From NCBI GenBank assembly GCA_012719415.1, contig JAAYAK010000247.1, forward strand, positions 1 through 63,040: a stretch of DNA of 63,040 bases, given 5' to 3'. This stretch comes from Syntrophorhabdus sp. Its GTDB lineage: Bacteria; Desulfobacterota; Syntrophorhabdia; Syntrophorhabdales; Syntrophorhabdaceae. The stretch's first letter is position 1, and the number at the start of each line of letters is the position of its first letter. Below, piece after piece: positions 19,750 through 57,403 of this stretch. Under the pieces are notes generated by a model. That model did not search any database. It saw only the letters and a program-made list of their open reading frames with translations, and was not told the DNA's origin. A program made the position numbers and the translations under genes.

Positions 19750-21798
19750 CTAGAGAGGACCGGGCACTTCCGCGTCGAGAAGAGTCCTCAGTCTCTCCAG
19801 CAACAGGGAAGGCGCTATCGGTTTCGAGAGGAAGTTGCTCCTGCTGTCCACGACACCCCTGTCGAGGACCACGTCCCGGGCGTGGCCGCTCACGAAAAGG
19901 ACCTTGACGGAAGGGTCCAGCTTGCTGATCTCGGAGTAGACCTCCATGCCGTTCTTCTTCGGCATTATCACATCCATGATGACGAGTCCGATCCTGTGCC
20001 TGTGCTCGGTGAAGCTGCGGACCGCCTCGTCCCCGTCGGCTGCGCCTATCACCGTGTAGCCATATTCCCTGAGCACCTCCTTCATGAGCTGGAGGGTTTC
20101 CCGGTCGTCTTCCGCCACGAGGATCGTCTCTGTACCCGAGGGCATCTTCGGCTCCACATGCCTTGCCTTCTCCCTTTTCACCCGCACCGAGGGGAAATAC
20201 AGATGGAACACCGTTCCCTTCCCCGGCTCGCTTTCCACCGTGATGTACCCGTCGTGCTGTTTCACGATGCCGTACACCGTGGAGAGTCCGAGTCCCGTTC
20301 CCCTGCCCGCCTCTTTCGTGGTGAAGAAAGGCTCGAATATGTGCTCCTTGACCGTCTCGTCCATTCCGTGTCCCGTGTCGGCCACTGTAACACGCGCATA
20401 GGTCCCCACCCTGCCGTAACCGTGTTTGTGGATAAAGGCCCTGTCGATGGACGCGTGGGCGGTGGAGATGGTCAGAACGCGGGTATCCGTCATGGCATCG
20501 CGGGCATTCGTCGCAAGGTTCATGAGGATCTGCTCGATCTGCGTGCGGTCGGCCATTATGGTGATCTCCCTCGCCGATGTCTGCACGCGAAGCTCGATGT
20601 CCTCGCTGAGGAGCCTTTCGAGAAGCCTCTGCACCCCCGTTATGATCTCATTGATACCGTTGGGTTCAAGGTTTACCGCCTGCTTCCTGCTGAAGGCAAG
20701 GAGGCTGTTCGTCAGGTTCGCAGCCCTCTTTGCCGACGAGAGGACGTGGTCCACGTAAACGCGCAGGGGGTTGTCCTTATCCATCTTGACCTGGAGAAGA
20801 TTTCCGTACCCGATGAGGGCGGTGAGAAGGTTGTTGAAATCGTGGGCGACACCCCCGGCCAGGGTACCGATGGCCTCCATCTTCTGGGAGTGCCGCAGCT
20901 GGGACTCAAGGTTCTTCCTGCGGGTGATGTCTCTGACGGTTCCCTCGAAATAGTGAGTACCGTTGTCCTCGTTGACGATGATGCGGACGTTTGTCGATGT
21001 CCACATTCTGGTGCCGTCCGTCCGGTACCGTTCCGATTCGAAGTTCTCCACGGACCTGCGGGTCTTCAGAATGCCGGTGAGGCGCCGGTAATCCTCGGGA
21101 TTGACGAAGGTCTTCCTCGTCTTGAGGTCCCCGTCTCCCGTCATCTGCAGGGGCGAGTCAAATCCGAAGATCCCCGCAAGGGCCGGGTTGGCGCTGATGT
21201 AATGGCCGTCGGCGGCAACCTGGAAGATCCCTTCGGCCGCGTTCTCGAAGATGTTGCGGTACTTTTCCTCGGCGGCCCTGAGCGCGTCCTCCCGCGCGAT
21301 GCGGTCCGTTATGTCGTGGAGGATGGCAACACACCCGCCGATCGGCGCCGCGTCTTCGGCAAGCGACGTTCTCACCTGCGAGACCGTCACCTCCATGGTG
21401 AGAGAGGAGCCGTCCTTTCTCACGAACTCCCAGGGGAGGACGGAAGTGTTGTTTCCCGCGATGATATCGTCGATGGCCGCGGTGAGACGGTCGCACTCGT
21501 CATCGCTCCTCGTGATGATGCGCAGCGTCCTTTTCTCGATCTCGTCCTTCCTCAATTGAAAGAGTCCCCGGAAAGCGCGGTTGCAGGAGATGATCCTCCT
21601 GTCCTCATCGAGCATGAATATCGCGTCGGAGAAGCTCTCGACGAGGACCCGGTAGCGGCCGAGGAACTCTTCCGTCTTCCTGGCCTTCGCGATGATCCGC
21701 GAGAGTTTGCTCACTTCCCTGAGATACTTCCTCCCCCTGTCCTCGGCGATATCCCTGTAGTAGGCAACCATCTTATCCTTCAAGAGATCTCGTTCCAT
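19750..21798 (-). CDS. PAS-domain hybrid sensor histidine kinase
   Basis: A 682-residue soluble hybrid kinase with no membrane segment. Order: N-terminal helix, two PAS domains (about 45-160 and 170-290), HisKA with the phospho-acceptor His in GGVAHDFNNLL, a HATPase domain (NLATNARDAM, DTGHGMD, GTGLGLSTVYGI) and a C-terminal receiver (VAEDDRETL, VIMDVIMP, phospho-acceptor Asp, Lys in LSKPI). The chosen ATG at 21798 is five bases after the end of the FIST gene; an earlier ATG would overlap it. Paired with the FIST sensor, it probably relays that signal to an unlinked regulator. Confidence 0.92.
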   Translation of the reverse strand: MERDLLKDKMVAYYRDIAEDRGRKYLREVSKLSRIIAKARKTEEFLGRYRVLVESFSDAIFMLDEDRRIISCNRAFRGLFQLRKDEIEKRTLRIITRSDDECDRLTAAIDDIIAGNNTSVLPWEFVRKDGSSLTMEVTVSQVRTSLAEDAAPIGGCVAILHDITDRIAREDALRAAEEKYRNIFENAAEGIFQVAADGHYISANPALAGIFGFDSPLQMTGDGDLKTRKTFVNPEDYRRLTGILKTRRSVENFESERYRTDGTRMWTSTNVRIIVNEDNGTHYFEGTVRDITRRKNLESQLRHSQKMEAIGTLAGGVAHDFNNLLTALIGYGNLLQVKMDKDNPLRVYVDHVLSSAKRAANLTNSLLAFSRKQAVNLEPNGINEIITGVQRLLERLLSEDIELRVQTSAREITIMADRTQIEQILMNLATNARDAMTDTRVLTISTAHASIDRAFIHKHGYGRVGTYARVTVADTGHGMDETVKEHIFEPFFTTKEAGRGTGLGLSTVYGIVKQHDGYITVESEPGKGTVFHLYFPSVRVKREKARHVEPKMPSGTETILVAEDDRETLQLMKEVLREYGYTVIGAADGDEAVRSFTEHRHRIGLVIMDVIMPKKNGMEVYSEISKLDPSVKVLFVSGHARDVVLDRGVVDSRSNFLSKPIAPSLLLERLRTLLDAEVPGPL

Positions 21799-21803
21799 GG
21801 ATC

Positions 21804-23033
21804 CTAGGGGTCCCTCGCAAGGACCGTGAGAACCCCCGTCCAATCGAGGCCTCTCGTTCTTCCCCGCAGCGGTGCCAGCTCCACACCGGAGTAAAAGCCG
21901 AAGAGGGGGATATCGCGCGCGCTGAGGACCTTCTGTACCTCCCCGGCCTCCTCGACGCTTGTGTTCGAGTAGTCCTTTGCCCGGCCCGCACAGTCGATGT
22001 ACAGGGCCAGGAGAGGCACCTTCCCGTCCCTATCTATCGTATCCACGAGGAGGCGCGAATTGTCCCGGGCGGATTCCACCATCCGGCCGGCGTCCCTGAC
22101 CATGAACTGGATCTCGTCGCCGCACGTGAGGTCGGATTCGAACATTATCACCCCCGACCTGTCGGGAATGACACCGAGTATGAGTCTGTTCACGTACCGG
22201 TTCTCCCGGTACGCTTCATATCTTTCCCCGCAGTGGACCCCGATCGTCAGAAAATCGAGGGGCTGCACCTCCTGCCATTCCTCGCTGTCGAAGAGCCCGT
22301 TTATCATCTCGACCACTGGCCTGCCGTCGATCTCGTACAAGAGCGGGCCGGAGACCTTCGTCACCCTGTGGCATACCCCGTCAAGGGGGGTGCATCCGTG
22401 CGTTATGCGATGGTAGACGGAAAAGTCCCCACCCAGCATGAGACCCACAAGGCTCTGCGATGCCGCTGATGAACCGCAGAACTGAAAGGTTCTGTTGAAA
22501 TCGTAATCGCCCATGAGCCCGGCGCCGACGACAGGGACGGCATCGCCCAGGACTTCCCCGATCCCGGCTATGAGCGGCGTCGATGAGTTCATGATGGGGG
22601 GGGAACCATTGTCGGGCGGGACCTTGATCGAATCGTAGAAAAGGAGAAGGAGCCTGTCTTCGGGCGCGCGGGTGATACCGCCGGCCATTTTCCTGCCGGC
22701 GTCCCTTTCATCCCTGTCCACCTCTCCGGCCGAGGCCAGTCTGAAGGTGATGAGGTCCGACTCGAGTGCCGCCACCGCGGCCACGGGGTCCCTGTAGGAG
22801 AGAAAGTCGTTGGATATGACACCGATCGCGGACCCCCCGACAACGGGAACATCGGCTCCCGCGGCCTGTCTTATGCCGTGGAAGAAGGCTTCGGGTCCAT
22901 TCCTGCCGGAACAGAAGGCAAGGATCAGGTCGGGTCTCGTTATACCCCCCGACGCCATGGCGCGCCTGGCAAGGACATCTCCGGAAATGGCCCGGCTCTT
23001 GCCTTCATCGCAGGCGATACCTATCCTTGTCAT
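21804..23033 (-). CDS. FIST N- and C-domain sensory protein
   Basis: A 409-residue protein built of the FIST N domain (GISGDVLARRAMASGG..., VVGGSAIGVISND) and FIST C domain (YRENRYVNRLILGVIPDRSGVIMFESDLTCGDEIQFMVRD, ALYIDCAGR, FGFYSGVELAP). FIST domains occur in signal transduction, often near kinases, and are thought to bind small molecules such as amino acids. The ATG at 23033 has GGAG at good spacing; earlier starts lie in non-conserved sequence. It lies directly before a hybrid kinase gene with no gap, so the two are a probable sensor-kinase pair. Confidence 0.9.
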   Translation of the reverse strand: MTRIGIACDEGKSRAISGDVLARRAMASGGITRPDLILAFCSGRNGPEAFFHGIRQAAGADVPVVGGSAIGVISNDFLSYRDPVAAVAALESDLITFRLASAGEVDRDERDAGRKMAGGITRAPEDRLLLLFYDSIKVPPDNGSPPIMNSSTPLIAGIGEVLGDAVPVVGAGLMGDYDFNRTFQFCGSSAASQSLVGLMLGGDFSVYHRITHGCTPLDGVCHRVTKVSGPLLYEIDGRPVVEMINGLFDSEEWQEVQPLDFLTIGVHCGERYEAYRENRYVNRLILGVIPDRSGVIMFESDLTCGDEIQFMVRDAGRMVESARDNSRLLVDTIDRDGKVPLLALYIDCAGRAKDYSNTSVEEAGEVQKVLSARDIPLFGFYSGVELAPLRGRTRGLDWTGVLTVLARDP

Positions 23034-26768: not shown

Positions 26769-28239
26769 ATTCCTTCCTGGGGGACCGGCCTGGCGAGTGT
26801 TTGAGCTCGTTCACCCTCGCCTTGTAGTCGTAAAGCCCGAGCTCCTTAAGTTTCGACACGCCGACGAAGAAGGTGTCCCGGCTTATCCCCAGGTGCTCCG
26901 CTATCTCTTTCGGCTCGAGGAGATGGTCGGACCCTCCGTCCCGGGGGTCCAGCCTGGTGAGGTAAAGGTAGAGGCGATACTCGGCCGCCGTGAGCTTCGC
27001 GTCTATTAGCTCGTCGAGCCTCGACGTGATCCCGTCGATGGCCGCGCGGGGCTGCGAGTAATACCTGACCTCGGCGGGAACATACTCCATGCCGATGGTC
27101 CCCGCCTCGCACATTATATAGGAGCGCTCCAGCACAGATTCCAGCTGGCGGACGTTACCCGGCCAGGAATACTGCATGAGGCACGCGAGGACCTCGTCGC
27201 TCACGGTCTTCCTGCCCCCGTGAATGCCGTCGAGCTTCTTCAGGAAATGCTCCACGAGAAGAGGTATGTCAGTGGGCCTTTCCCTCAGCGGCGGCAGGGT
27301 AAAGGCGATGACATTGAGCCTGTAATAGAGGTCTTCCCTGAACCTTCCCGCCTCGATCTCCTGTTCCAGCTTCTTGTTGGTCGCCGCGATGATGCGCACG
27401 TCGAGCTTGATCGTCTCTTTTCCTCCGATCCTCCGTATCTCCTTCTCCTGGAGGGCCCTCAAGAGCTTCGCCTGCGTACTCCGGGTGAGGTCTCCTATCT
27501 CGTCGAGGAAGAGGGTGCTGCCGTTGGCCTGCTCGAAGAGCCCGATCTGCCGCGCCAGGGCCCCGGTGAAGGCGCCTTTCTCGTACCCGAAGAGTTCGCT
27601 CTCGAGAAGCGTTTCCGGTATGGCCGCGCAGTTGATGGCGAAAAAGGGTTTCCCTTTCCTGGGGCTGTTGTAGTGAATGCTCTTGGCGAAAAGCTCCTTG
27701 CCCGTTCCGCTTTCACCGTGAATGAGAACGGTGGAGTTCGTCGGGGCCACCCTCCTGACGATCTTGTAAAGCTCCTCCATGGCACCGTGCGCACCGACGA
27801 TGTTGTCGATGTGAAAACGGTCCCGCAGCTGGTCCTTCAGCATGATGTTGTCCTTGAGGAGCTTCACCTGGTTCATGGCATTGGTGATGACGAGGAGAAG
27901 CTGGTCCTTCTCGAGGGGCTTCTCAAGATAGTAGAAGGCACCAAGCTTGGTCGCCTCCACGGCCGAGGGTATGGAGCCGAAGGCGGTCATGATGATCACG
28001 TGGCAGGTCCTCCCCAGGGCCCTCACTTCCCTCAGCACTTCCGTGCCGTCGATGTCGGGAAGCTTGAGGTCCGTGAGGATGACATCGAAATTTCCGTTCT
28101 TGAGGATGTCCACCGCCTTTTTTCCGCAGTCGGCGGCCTCGACATAGAAACCCTCCTTCGAAAGGATGGTCTTTATGATCCCGCGCTGGTTCCTGTCGTC
28201 CTCAACGACAAGGATAGCGCCCTTCGTGTCATCCTTCAT
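26767..28239 (-). CDS. Sigma-54-dependent NtrC-family response regulator
   Basis: A 490-residue transcription activator. Order: receiver domain 1-125 (phospho-acceptor Asp57 in ILTDLKLPD, Lys in LEKPL), AAA+ domain with Walker A GESGTGKE, the sigma-54-contact loop GAFTGA, and Walker B TLFLDEIGD, then a C-terminal DNA-binding part. That last part (EPKEIAEHLGISRDTFFVGVSKLKELG) is not the usual Fis-type helix-turn-helix. Its start overlaps the 3' end of the kinase gene by 11 bases, making a two-component operon. A likely target is the adjacent secreted-protein promoter. Confidence 0.94.
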   Translation of the reverse strand: MKDDTKGAILVVEDDRNQRGIIKTILSKEGFYVEAADCGKKAVDILKNGNFDVILTDLKLPDIDGTEVLREVRALGRTCHVIIMTAFGSIPSAVEATKLGAFYYLEKPLEKDQLLLVITNAMNQVKLLKDNIMLKDQLRDRFHIDNIVGAHGAMEELYKIVRRVAPTNSTVLIHGESGTGKELFAKSIHYNSPRKGKPFFAINCAAIPETLLESELFGYEKGAFTGALARQIGLFEQANGSTLFLDEIGDLTRSTQAKLLRALQEKEIRRIGGKETIKLDVRIIAATNKKLEQEIEAGRFREDLYYRLNVIAFTLPPLRERPTDIPLLVEHFLKKLDGIHGGRKTVSDEVLACLMQYSWPGNVRQLESVLERSYIMCEAGTIGMEYVPAEVRYYSQPRAAIDGITSRLDELIDAKLTAAEYRLYLYLTRLDPRDGGSDHLLEPKEIAEHLGISRDTFFVGVSKLKELGLYDYKARVNELKHSPGRSPRKE

Positions 28240-29731
28240 GGCGTGGGATCCTTATGGTCATGGTAGTTCCTTTTCCGATCTCGCTCGCGGCCGATATGGT
28301 GCCGCCGTGCTCCTCGACGAACCGCTTCGTTATGGCGAGCCCGAGACCAATGCCGAGTTTTTTTGTAGAGTAATAGGGCTCGAAGATCTTGTCAAGCTCA
28401 TCTTCCGCTATGCCCTCCCCGTCATCGGAGACCGACAGGTATGTCACGGAATCCTCCGTCCCGCACTCGATGCGCACCCTCCCCGGCCCCTCTATGGCCT
28501 GGACGGCATTTATCACAAGGTTGATGACGCAGAGCCGCATGTACTCCCTGTCACAGTACATCGTATCGGTGCCGTCGCGGCAGCCAAGCTCGATCTCGAC
28601 ACCGCTTCGAATCTTGTCCTTCACCATGACGAGCGCTTCGTCAACGAGGTTCCCGGGGGGCACGTCTTCCTTGTTGAGTGTGATCGATTTGCCGAGGAAA
28701 AGGAAATTGTGGATGAGCTCGTTCACCCGGTATATCTCCGTGAGGAGGCTGTCGAGAAGCCCGACGAGGTCCTCCTTGTCCGAGATGGGCTCCTCCGTCA
28801 CCCTTTCCCTGATGTGTCCTATGGAGAGGGTCAGGAAATTGAGAGGGTTCCGTATCTCGTGGGCGATACCTGAGGAGAGCTGACCGATGAGGGAAAGCTG
28901 TTCGGACTTCTTCAGCTTCTCTTCCAGCTCCTTGCGCTCGTCGAGTTTGTCCACCATTTCATTGAAGCTCGTCACCAGGGTACCGATCTCATCCTTGCGG
29001 TCCGTTTCCCTGATCTTGACGAGCTCTCCCATGGCGATCTTCCTGCTTGCCATGGCTATCCTCTTGATCGGTTCCGTGTATTTCTCGGCGATGACGAGGC
29101 ACACGATGATGCCGATGGTGAAGGCGAAGATCATGCTGAGGATCCTCTTGATCTGGTTGCGGTTCTGCAGGAGACGATAGTCGTCGAGTGCCATGTTGAT
29201 ATGGATGTAGCCGATATTCTGGCCCTTGATCGCGACTGGCATGATGATGTTGTAGAGCCGCTGGGTGCCGCTGCGATGCTCGTCGCCGAGGCGCGCCGTG
29301 ATCATGAGGTCCTTTTTCCGCGCGGCCGGCCTCTTCTCCGTCAGCTTCTGGGTGGTGCCGATCTTCTTCGGGTCGGAACTGGCGATGACCTCCGACTTGT
29401 CGCTAACGATCGAGATCTCCTTGATCCCCTTCTTGTTGAGCATGTCCACGTAGCTCTTGAGCCGGGCCGTCGAATCCCCCCGGTACGTCAGTTCCTCGAC
29501 GCTTATCTGGATGGCCCTGGTGATGTCGTCGATATTCTCGCCCACCTTGTCGAGAAGGGCCTCTTCGGCCCTCGTGTAGATGATGGTCAGGGAACCGATG
29601 GATATGAGAAGGAGAAAGAGGAGAATGAGGAGGAGCTGCGTTCTCAACGACAGGCTGCGAAAAACGGATTTCACGAGTGCGTAGAGTCCTGCCGCCCTTT
29701 CCCCCATGTTACGCCTGCCGCTCGTCTTCAT
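28229..29731 (-). CDS. Membrane sensor histidine kinase, partner of the NtrC-type regulator
   Basis: A 500-residue kinase. Two membrane segments (about 20-42 and 195-215) bracket an extracytoplasmic sensor domain of about 150 residues; HAMP follows, then HisKA (His in SSGIAHEIRNPLNFL) and HATPase (NLVINAVQAIEG, DDGEGIAEDEL, GIGLGLAITKRFVEEHGG). The start at 29731 lies seven bases after the gltX stop and has AAGGA upstream; earlier in-frame starts overlap gltX. It should phosphorylate Asp57 of the downstream regulator. The sensed signal is unknown. Confidence 0.92.
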   Translation of the reverse strand: MKTSGRRNMGERAAGLYALVKSVFRSLSLRTQLLLILLFLLLISIGSLTIIYTRAEEALLDKVGENIDDITRAIQISVEELTYRGDSTARLKSYVDMLNKKGIKEISIVSDKSEVIASSDPKKIGTTQKLTEKRPAARKKDLMITARLGDEHRSGTQRLYNIIMPVAIKGQNIGYIHINMALDDYRLLQNRNQIKRILSMIFAFTIGIIVCLVIAEKYTEPIKRIAMASRKIAMGELVKIRETDRKDEIGTLVTSFNEMVDKLDERKELEEKLKKSEQLSLIGQLSSGIAHEIRNPLNFLTLSIGHIRERVTEEPISDKEDLVGLLDSLLTEIYRVNELIHNFLFLGKSITLNKEDVPPGNLVDEALVMVKDKIRSGVEIELGCRDGTDTMYCDREYMRLCVINLVINAVQAIEGPGRVRIECGTEDSVTYLSVSDDGEGIAEDELDKIFEPYYSTKKLGIGLGLAITKRFVEEHGGTISAASEIGKGTTMTIRIPRHEG

Positions 29732-29738
29732 GGGCCCG

Positions 29739-31103
29739 CTATCCTTCGTGTCTGTGCTCGAGATAGGCATCGATGCGACCTGTGATGACCTCCACGGGAA
29801 CGAGAGGAAAGACATCCCGCAGGGGGGGCCCGTCTGACCTTCCCGTGATAAAGGCCCTCAGGATCATGAAGAGGTCCCTTTTCTTAAGGCCGGGGGGCGC
29901 GGCGAGAGCGCCGGCGAGCTCGTCGAAGGTGAGGCCGCTCCCGGCTGCGAGGCGGGGCCTGACGGCCTTCGCTATCTCTCCGGCCGCGTCCATCTTCAAG
30001 AGGTAACGAAGCGCGCTCTCCCTGAACTCCGCCCTGTCGAACATCTCCATGTACTCCCTGAGGTCGGTAAGGGTGGAGGCGTTCTCACGCACGACGGACA
30101 TCTTCTCCGCCCGGGAGGTGTCGATCCCCGCCCTGTCGAGAAGCTCGGTGAGAGGCATGCGCTTCAGGTATTCCCTGTTGAACCAGAGCAGCTTCTCCAT
30201 ATCGAAAACACTGTCCGAACCGGATACTGAGTCAAGGGAAAAGGTCCGGATGAGCTCATCGGTGTTGAGGAGCTCCACCGCAAGGCTTCGCCCCATCGTC
30301 GACAGGTAGTTCACGAGCGCCTCGCTCACTATTCCCATGGCACGGAAATCCATAACGCGCGTCGCGCCGTGCCTCTTGCTGAGAGGTTTGCGGTCAGGAC
30401 CGATAAGGAGGGAGTGATGCGCGTATTCAGGCGGCCTTCCTCCCAGGGCATTGATGAGGGCTATCTGCTTCGGCGTGTTGGAGATATGGTCCCCTCCCCG
30501 TATGACGTGGGTGATCCCCATGAGCATGTCGTCGACGACGACGGCCAGGTTGTACGTCGGTGTCCCGTCCCTTCTGAGGATTATGAGGTCATCCACGTGT
30601 CCCCTCGGGAAAGAAAGCTCCCCCCGTATGCCGTCCCGGAACGTTATCGGCCTTCCATCCGACCGGAAGCGCAGGGTGAAGGGCCGCCCCTCGTCCGTGA
30701 GCCTTACGGCCTCCCCGGCGGAAAGGTCCCGGCATTTTCCGTCATATCTCGGAGGCTCGCCCCGCGCCAGCGACCTCTGTCTCGCCGCGGCAAGCTCCTG
30801 TTCGCTGCAGAAACACCGGTACGCGAGGCCCTTCTCCAGGAGGACCATCGCGTGGGACCTGTAGACGTCAAGACGCTCGGACTGGCGCAGCGGTCCTTCG
30901 TCCCAGGCGATCCCGAGCCAGGCAAGATCATCCGTGATGGACCTCTCGTAGGCCGCGTCGGAGCGTTCGACGTCCGTATCCTCCATGCGCAGAACGAAGG
31001 ACCCCCCGTTCTTCCTGGCGAAGAACCAGTTGAAGAGGGCCGTCTTCGCGTTTCCCACGTGGAGATGTCCCGTCGGGCTCGGGGCAAACCTTACCCTGAC
31101 CAT
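29739..31103 (-). CDS. gltX: Glutamyl-tRNA synthetase, copy 1
   Basis: A 454-residue class I synthetase. The HIGH-type motif lies in RFAPSPTGHLHVGNAKTALFN, and the KMSKS equivalent reads PLSKRHGAT. The start at 31103 (after GAGGCG) gives the family N-terminus VRVRFAPSPTG directly; an upstream ATG adds 11 unrelated residues. It is one of two GluRS-type genes in the window, only about 3.7 kb from the other and of similar length. In bacteria with two GluRS, one may charge tRNA-Gln for amidation. It sits between ispF and a two-component operon. Confidence 0.93.
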   Translation of the reverse strand: MVRVRFAPSPTGHLHVGNAKTALFNWFFARKNGGSFVLRMEDTDVERSDAAYERSITDDLAWLGIAWDEGPLRQSERLDVYRSHAMVLLEKGLAYRCFCSEQELAAARQRSLARGEPPRYDGKCRDLSAGEAVRLTDEGRPFTLRFRSDGRPITFRDGIRGELSFPRGHVDDLIILRRDGTPTYNLAVVVDDMLMGITHVIRGGDHISNTPKQIALINALGGRPPEYAHHSLLIGPDRKPLSKRHGATRVMDFRAMGIVSEALVNYLSTMGRSLAVELLNTDELIRTFSLDSVSGSDSVFDMEKLLWFNREYLKRMPLTELLDRAGIDTSRAEKMSVVRENASTLTDLREYMEMFDRAEFRESALRYLLKMDAAGEIAKAVRPRLAAGSGLTFDELAGALAAPPGLKKRDLFMILRAFITGRSDGPPLRDVFPLVPVEVITGRIDAYLEHRHEG

Positions 31104-55402: not shown

Positions 55403-55568
55403 TCCTCTCTTTCCCCTGTTTTATTCCCTAATATACCATAAAACAGGAATTTGCAAAAGATGCAAGAATTTTGGCGGCTGCTCTTGCAAAGGGCCCTGTT
55501 CGATGGTATGGTTTGGAAAAAATCGCCGGAGGGTCTGCGATCGGCACGCTCTCGGAAAGGAATGTCTT

Positions 55569-56099
55569 TTGCCCAAAAAAACGCCAACCTTCAAGACGGT
55601 ATTGATAATAGGGGTCATCATAGGGATAGTGGTGATCGTCATAGCCGTCATAGCCATTCACCTCCAGCAGAAAAAGACCCTCAAGGCATCCATCGAGGGC
55701 ACTCTTCCAAGGATGGAAGAGAAGACCGGCTGGCAGGCGCTCATCACCGACGGAGATGGTGAGCACCATTACGTGATCGAGAAAGGACAGGGCGGATCCG
55801 GGCAGACCGCCGGTGTTTGGGACAGGCTGACCTACTCGAAGGAAGGCAGGGAGAACTACGTCCTCAAACGGCGAAAGAACGGCATGTTCATAACGGGAAT
55901 GGACACCCTCGCCAGCCGTTTCACGCTGTATGAACTGAGGTGCGGCAAAGACCCCCGGCAATATGCCATCATGAAGGTCTTCGAGGTGTCTCAGGACGGC
56001 AAGACGCTGGATTACGGAAAGGCGGGGAGCCAGAAGGATTGGGAGGACATTCCGGGGCAGACCATCGTCGACAGGCTGGCAAAGATCGCCTGCCGGTGA
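55569..56099 (+). CDS. Membrane-anchored protein of unknown function
   Basis: A 176-residue product starting at TTG 55569 with AAGGA upstream; earlier in-frame starts run through the opposite phoH gene and are unlikely. Residues 1-10 are basic, one membrane helix lies at about 11-33 (VLIIGVIIGIVVIVIAVIAIHL), and the rest is a globular, probably periplasmic domain with alternating charged strands (YVIEKGQGGSGQTAGVWDRLTYSKEGRENYVLKRRKNG). No known family is recognised. It lies 62 bases before the receiver-LpxC gene. Confidence 0.65.
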   Translation: MPKKTPTFKTVLIIGVIIGIVVIVIAVIAIHLQQKKTLKASIEGTLPRMEEKTGWQALITDGDGEHHYVIEKGQGGSGQTAGVWDRLTYSKEGRENYVLKRRKNGMFITGMDTLASRFTLYELRCGKDPRQYAIMKVFEVSQDGKTLDYGKAGSQKDWEDIPGQTIVDRLAKIACR

Positions 56100-56124: not shown

Positions 56125-56153
56125 TTGTAAGTCACCGGCATTTCGTATAGAAT
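56125..56153 (+). promoter_or_regulatory. Candidate promoter abutting the receiver-LpxC gene
   Basis: TTGTAA (56125-56130), 17-bp spacer, TAGAAT (56148-56153). RNA would start near 56160, two bases before the ATG at 56162, and no Shine-Dalgarno sequence is present. Confidence 0.4.
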
Positions 56154-56161
56154 ATTGGGTC

Positions 56162-57403
56162 ATGAACAAGGTTCTCATCATAGACGACGAACGGAACATC
56201 CTTGACTCCCTCTCGGGTATCCTCGAGGATGAAGGCTTCTCGGTGCTGAAGGCGACCGACGGCAAGGAAGGCCTGGCCATCTTCGAGCGCGAAGCCCCCG
56301 ACGTGGTCCTCCTCGATGTGTGGATGCCCGAACTTGACGGCATCCAGGTCCTCAAGGAGATACGCACCCGGAAGGACGACGCGAAGGTGGTGGTCATATC
56401 GGGGCACGGGACGATCTCGACGGCGGTGGAGGCCGTCAAGATGGGTGCCTATGATTTTCTCGAAAAACCCCTCTCCATCGACAAGGTGCTCGAGGTCGTC
56501 TCCCGCAGCATCGGCGTCGGTTCAAAGCACGACCCGTCGGTTGCGGATTTCAAGCTGGAAGTGACGCCCGGGCGCACCAGGGAAAAGCAGAAGACCATCG
56601 GAAAGAGCACCGTCGTTTACGGGGTGGGACTCCACTCCGGGGTGAAAACGGGAATGATCCTCCTGCCCATGCCGGAGAACACGGGCATAGTCTTCGAGAC
56701 CATTCCCGACGGGGAACGCATACCGGCCTACATCGACTACGTCTTCTCCGTGGGATACGCGTCATCGGTGAAAGGCAAGAACAGCGTTGTGCGCACCATC
56801 GAACACCTCCTGTCCGCCTGTCATATGTACGGGATCACGAACCTTCTCGTCAAGGTGAGCGAAGAGATACCCATCTTCGACGGCTCGGCCATCGAGATCT
56901 GCAGAAAGATCGAGGAGGCTGAGGTCATCGACCAGGCCGACGGGATCGAACCGCTCGTCATCACGGAAAAGGTGGAGCTCCCCAACCTGCAGAACGGGAA
57001 GTACCTCGCGGCGGAGCCCTCGGACCACTTCGAGATCGACTATCTCCTGGAACAGAAGAGGCCTATCGGGACACAGCATTACCGGTTTGTCGCCGGGCGC
57101 GACGACTATGTCGCCAACATCGCTCCCGCGAGGACCTTCGGTTTCCTCAAGGACTTCGAGCAGCTCGCGAAGATGGGCCTCGGGACCGGAGGGCGCATCA
57201 ATAACTTCATCATCCTCGGCGAAGACGAGGTCATAAACACGAAGCTGAGGTTCGAAGATGAGTTCGTCCGCCACAAGGTCCTCGACCTCATCGGGGACAT
57301 CTACCTCCTCAACCGTCCCATAACGGGCAAGATAACCGCCCGCCAGACAGGCCATGTGGAGAACATCGCGCTGGTAAAGGAACTGAAAAAACGGTTTCTC
57401 TGA
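56162..57403 (+). CDS. lpxC: Receiver domain - LpxC fusion (UDP-3-O-acyl-GlcNAc deacetylase)
   Basis: A 413-residue protein. Residues 1-125 are an NtrX-like response-regulator receiver: acidic pair Asp8-Asp9, phospho-acceptor Asp52 (VVLLDVWMPE), Ser80 and Lys102 (FLEKPLS). From about 140 it is a full LpxC, the zinc deacetylase committing UDP-GlcNAc to lipid A. The zinc ligands are His215 (TIEHL), His371, Asp375 and His398; the spacing of the last three (H, +4 D, +27 H) is that of E. coli LpxC (H238, D242, H265). General-base Glu214 and the ARTFGF motif are present. No lpxA or fabZ is adjacent. Confidence 0.95.
   Translation: MNKVLIIDDERNILDSLSGILEDEGFSVLKATDGKEGLAIFEREAPDVVLLDVWMPELDGIQVLKEIRTRKDDAKVVVISGHGTISTAVEAVKMGAYDFLEKPLSIDKVLEVVSRSIGVGSKHDPSVADFKLEVTPGRTREKQKTIGKSTVVYGVGLHSGVKTGMILLPMPENTGIVFETIPDGERIPAYIDYVFSVGYASSVKGKNSVVRTIEHLLSACHMYGITNLLVKVSEEIPIFDGSAIEICRKIEEAEVIDQADGIEPLVITEKVELPNLQNGKYLAAEPSDHFEIDYLLEQKRPIGTQHYRFVAGRDDYVANIAPARTFGFLKDFEQLAKMGLGTGGRINNFIILGEDEVINTKLRFEDEFVRHKVLDLIGDIYLLNRPITGKITARQTGHVENIALVKELKKRFL

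Follow-up and report, generated by a model that had tools for sequence, protein, structure and literature searches.

LpxC as the probable output domain of an NtrX-derived response regulator in Syntrophorhabdus and its relatives

A receiver domain and a complete LpxC in one gene

In the 63,040-nucleotide stretch of Syntrophorhabdus sp. DNA that was analyzed (contig JAAYAK010000247.1, hereafter the window), a phospho-receiver domain (REC) and the lipid A enzyme LpxC are encoded by one uninterrupted frame. The features of this gene are as follows.

56162..57403, +: REC-LpxC fusion gene, 413 aa, the sole lpxC of the genome (translation; profile search of the genome)
56125..56153, +: weak sigma70-type promoter-like match just 5' of the start codon (single match of a promoter scan; not evidence of function)
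56171..56500, +: NtrX-type receiver, residues 4-113, with D8, D9, D52, S80 and K102 (Pfam, NCBIfam, nearest PDB entries, conservation)
56315..56317, +: codon of the predicted phospho-acceptor Asp52 (alignment; invariant)
56519..56548, +: disordered linker, residues 120-129 (pLDDT <50; length and sequence differ among relatives)
56588..57388, +: LpxC deacetylase domain, residues 143-409, with E214, H215, H371, K372, D375 and H398 (Pfam, alignment, fold match)
57353..57403, +: short C-terminus, 15 residues past the catalytic His398 (comparison of tails with stand-alone LpxCs)

Pfam assigns the N-terminal domain to Response_reg (E 9e-32) and the C-terminal domain to LpxC (E 1e-77, covering profile positions 1-267 of 268), and the NCBIfam model TIGR00325 matches above its own cut-off. 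The frame is open in the 5' direction as far as a GTG at 55940, and homology starts only at the ATG at 56162. The original prediction described an intact receiver with Asp8-Asp9, Asp52, Ser80 and Lys102, followed by a complete LpxC with its zinc ligands. Alignment verifies every one of these residues: the acidic pocket, acceptor Asp, Ser/Thr and Lys of a receiver are all present, as are the zinc ligands and catalytic residues of LpxC (E214/H215, H371/K372, D375 and H398). Because a profile search of the whole genome finds no second LpxC and the genome also encodes LpxB, the fusion is very likely the working lpxC of the organism, as judged from gene content. An ORF at 55470-56099 (+), 62 nt 5' of the fusion, has a weak, sub-threshold match to Adhesin_E (Surface-adhesin protein E).

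The fusion is conserved across many families

The bacteria that have the fusion make up a large group of anaerobes and soil dwellers. One-ORF relatives with 83-98% identity occur in 10 of the 11 other genomes of the genus, some of them cut by contig ends; in the eleventh (G005), nothing matches the LpxC part. Fusions occur throughout the order, where a few draft genomes have a fusion truncated at a contig end as their only match, or none at all, and one-ORF relatives at 41-76% identity are found in independent assemblies from other families and from Candidatus Binatota. A profile of fusion LpxC domains detected this type of LpxC in 88 of 395 sampled genomes of the phylum. The scores are separated by a gap, with the 88 genomes above 338 bits, two divergent second copies near 283 bits and the remainder at or below about 264 bits, the last consisting mostly of ORFs of ~310 aa. 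Overall, fusions are present in 25 families, Candidatus Binatota included, with the reservation that the sampled genomes are related and the counts are not independent. None of 398 Pseudomonadota genomes matched the profile at E 1e-90 in a search that had no internal positive control.

The search for REC-LpxC architectures across genomes that had been called for beforehand thus finds the fusion conserved and rules out its being absent from relatives. Conservation in dozens of independent assemblies likewise rules out a chance fusion, a frameshift or an assembly artefact, and the one-ORF relatives establish a single gene as predicted, not a frameshifted pair. The LpxC-FabZ type of fusion in Bacteroidetes has a different architecture and gives only distant matches. 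In an LpxC tree, the fusion LpxCs form one clade, with branch support of 100/100 against the stand-alone LpxCs of the phylum. Two REC-LpxC copies are present in one genome (L230 and L231, genome G413). At L257 (G275) and G232:C9:45279, a divergent REC-LpxC on a long branch, possibly acquired, is found beside a stand-alone LpxC.

The LpxC catalytic residues are kept in all 117 distinct fusions, and the full phospho-pocket (D/D/D/S-or-T/K) in 116 of the 117, at REC identities down to about 45-50%. The one exception (L223:768-2111), from a draft genome, has lost the N-terminal half of its REC without a break in the frame. In another draft genome (L224:5018-7261), REC and AAA-LpxC lie in one frame that is split by a single in-frame stop; its close relative L225 is intact.

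The receiver descends from NtrX

The best REC-type NCBIfam model for the receiver is NtrX. Among solved receivers, 4d6x/4d6y, from Brucella NtrX, are closest in sequence; NtrC-type receivers come next, and 5m7n ('Nitrogen assimilation regulatory protein'), also Brucella NtrX, is not far behind. Fusion loci of relatives in 20 genomes encode intermediate REC-AAA+-LpxC proteins, most of which retain a degenerate HTH (all except the four of family f57). These matches and intermediates place the receiver in the NtrX lineage. The domain had been called NtrX-like, and the likeness holds, but 'merely like' understates a receiver that is NtrX-derived. Pfam finds neither an AAA+ domain with GAFTGA nor a C-terminal HTH in the window protein, which is therefore derived from NtrX without being one. 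The GAFTGA loop is also absent from the AAA+ domain in all 20 genomes with intermediates, so these proteins probably do not function as sigma54 activators. In a REC tree of ~120 columns, which is weakly resolved, the sigma54 regulators of the organism's own genome are placed away from the fusion.

The distribution of NtrX itself is in keeping with this descent. A search with full-length NtrX divides 390 genomes into two groups at about 1e-140, although a few genomes lie near the cut. A separate NtrX is absent from 86 of 87 fusion genomes, whereas it is absent from only 41 of 303 non-fusion genomes (Fisher p 2.5e-53, a value inflated by shared ancestry). The single fusion genome with a full-length NtrX match (G308, E 1e-158) counts against the explanation that we favor. 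In 46 of 99 non-fusion genomes, lpxC and ntrX share a strand and are no more than 7 kb apart, and the gene order lpxC-ntrY-ntrX was read directly in five. The simplest story consistent with these arrangements is that a neighboring lpxC was captured as an output of NtrX, after which AAA+ and HTH would have been lost; the form in the window could also have arisen without an AAA+ stage. The LpxC tree implies 3-4 changes in AAA+, and the REC tree, which at about 120 columns is too short to count the losses, implies one.

NtrY is the probable kinase

An ORF for NtrY lies directly upstream of the fusion, ending -16 to 123 nt from the receiver, in 34 of the 99 loci whose upstream sequence is long enough; for some of the remaining 65 it extends only about 1.5 kb. 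Such pairs are found in Binatota and across many other families. In the family of the window, ntrY is not adjacent to the fusion, which counts against our favored explanation. It is nonetheless kept, unlinked, with an NtrY_N match in 34 of 40 relatives. The genome of the window encodes one intact, unlinked NtrY on contig C78, with a transmembrane N-terminus and H, N and G boxes that are intact by eye. The 5.4 kb downstream of this gene contain no response regulator beside it, and on its upstream side the contig ends. The orphan ntrY is situated upstream of aminopeptidase-like and Lon protease genes, all on one strand (L258:645-7530).

The window itself holds two kinases, one at 28232-29857 (-) and a hybrid at 19753-22029 (-). 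The former is paired with its own sigma54 response regulator (the pair spans 26770-29857 [-]), and in-window kinases are unlikely as dedicated donors. The original prediction was thus correct that no dedicated kinase is adjacent, and of the donors it allowed, a kinase in the window or one elsewhere, the former fares poorly; the gene pairs point to the unlinked NtrY as the probable dedicated kinase of the fusion.

Features of other LpxC control are missing

The fusions end 14-23 residues past the catalytic His (114 fusions), compared with 22-48 residues in 28 stand-alone LpxCs of the phylum; the latter typically carry a tail of about 45 residues, which the fusions have lost. In E. coli, the C-terminal end of LpxC is required for degradation by FtsH, as cited in PMC3333781 (its reference B22). 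Of 297 genomes, 53 have a recognizable LapB, and no member of this set belongs to the 88 fusion genomes (65 of the 88 are in the sample, as reconstructed); the LapB genomes do include G232 and G275, which hold the divergent REC-LpxC. Most non-fusion genomes also have no recognizable LapB, so its absence is only supportive. Together, these comparisons give signs that control may have moved from other features to the receiver.

Proposed mechanism and alternatives

AlphaFold models of two members that are ~44% identical score pTM 0.87 and 0.89 and show the linker as disordered, and the fold of the LpxC domain matches Aquifex LpxC (1p42/2jt2). Since LpxC alone covers only 0.62 of the first model (TM coverage), these values suggest, indirectly, that REC and LpxC pack against each other in a defined way.

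We consider it likely that the fusion is an NtrX-derived response regulator in which LpxC has replaced the AAA+/DNA-binding output, and that NtrY controls commitment to lipid A by phosphorylation. With LpxC in place of the DNA-binding part of NtrX, NtrY would probably switch the enzyme directly rather than through genes or protein breakdown. We infer that the membrane sensor kinase NtrY would phosphorylate Asp52, and that phosphorylation may alter domain packing or dimerization and hence LpxC activity. Phosphorylation of CheB releases inhibition of its fused enzyme, a precedent that would suit release of inhibition here, whereas the lowering of lpxC transcripts by NtrYX in alphaproteobacteria would suit repression. 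On the sign of the effect, a CheB-like release of inhibition is our guess, only slightly favored over repression. Direct control of LPS synthesis by a histidine kinase, as originally proposed, remains the best reading of the sequence evidence, supported by the 116 of 117 intact pockets, the descent from NtrX, the NtrY-fusion pairs and the loss of other control features. Poor conservation of the linker between relatives counts against it.

The receiver could instead set the amount or location of LpxC, with phosphorylation exposing the enzyme to, or hiding it from, a protease such as FtsH or Lon, or with NtrY holding it at the membrane. E. coli LpxC is controlled by proteolysis, the orphan ntrY in the genome of the window adjoins lon, and, with the C-terminal tail lost, a protease could control the fusions only through a new handle. 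Lon may also degrade alphaproteobacterial LpxC (PMC12444477). However, the lon neighborhood was seen in one genome only and the packing suggested by the pTM values fits allostery as well, and we regard control of amount or location as unlikely. It is improbable, too, that another kinase or acetyl phosphate phosphorylates the receiver while NtrY now serves another regulator. The separation of ntrY from the fusion in the family of the window and the two other kinases in the window would fit such a donor, but NtrY-fusion pairs recur in many lineages, NtrY is kept where there is no NtrX, and the kinase at 28232-29857 has its own sigma54 regulator next door.

That the receiver is a structural or dimerization relic with no signaling role seems very improbable: in most of the phylum's genomes a stand-alone LpxC does work with no receiver attached, but a relic would be expected to lose its pocket, which 116 of 117 fusions keep whole despite drift of the linker. 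Least credible, to the point of being nearly dismissed, is an additional NtrX-like role in transcription. REC-AAA-HTH-LpxC forms exist, yet GAFTGA is missing from all AAA+ forms, and for the window protein the domain content, with no AAA+ or HTH, refutes such a role.

Relation to known systems

Switching of LpxC by NtrY would differ from the known controls of the enzyme, which act on its amount (FtsH/LapB, Lon) or its transcription. CheB, PleD and RpfG are response regulators with enzymatic output, so a receiver fused to an enzyme has precedent, and by analogy phospho-control would be expected in the fusion; LpxC is a new and striking target, in that the fused enzyme catalyzes the committed step of lipid A synthesis, part of core biosynthesis, and is not one of signaling or chemotaxis. 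Full-text searches of the open-licence PMC literature found no earlier description of a receiver-LpxC fusion, and the architecture may have an uncommented entry in Pfam or InterPro. The fusion shares the complete fold and catalytic residues of stand-alone LpxC, and is distinguished by its N-terminal receiver, the missing C-terminal tail and its separate clade. With the NtrX of NtrY-NtrX (REC-AAA+-HTH), it has in common the REC lineage, the same kinase gene as neighbor in many relatives and a link to lpxC and the envelope, but the AAA+/HTH output is missing from the window protein and degenerate in the intermediates, and its output is an enzyme in place of a promoter.

How cells set LpxC activity is central to outer-membrane biology and to the targeting of LpxC by drugs, and a natural kinase-switched LpxC would make phospho-allostery testable with one purified protein. 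The fusion also offers, from an independent lineage, an explanation for the recurrence of NtrYX, which owes its name to nitrogen regulation, in the control of envelope and LPS. In Rhodobacter and Caulobacter, NtrYX lowers lpxC transcripts, and in Rhodobacter there is no NtrX site at lpxC (PMC7240162, PMC12444477); the same two-component system thus bears on the same enzyme, there via the transcript and here via physical fusion. In the sulfate reducer Desulfovibrio vulgaris, the response regulator DVU2934 has lpxC as its single target (PMC3333781) and, like the fusion, is devoted to lpxC, but it is a separate protein and acts transcriptionally.
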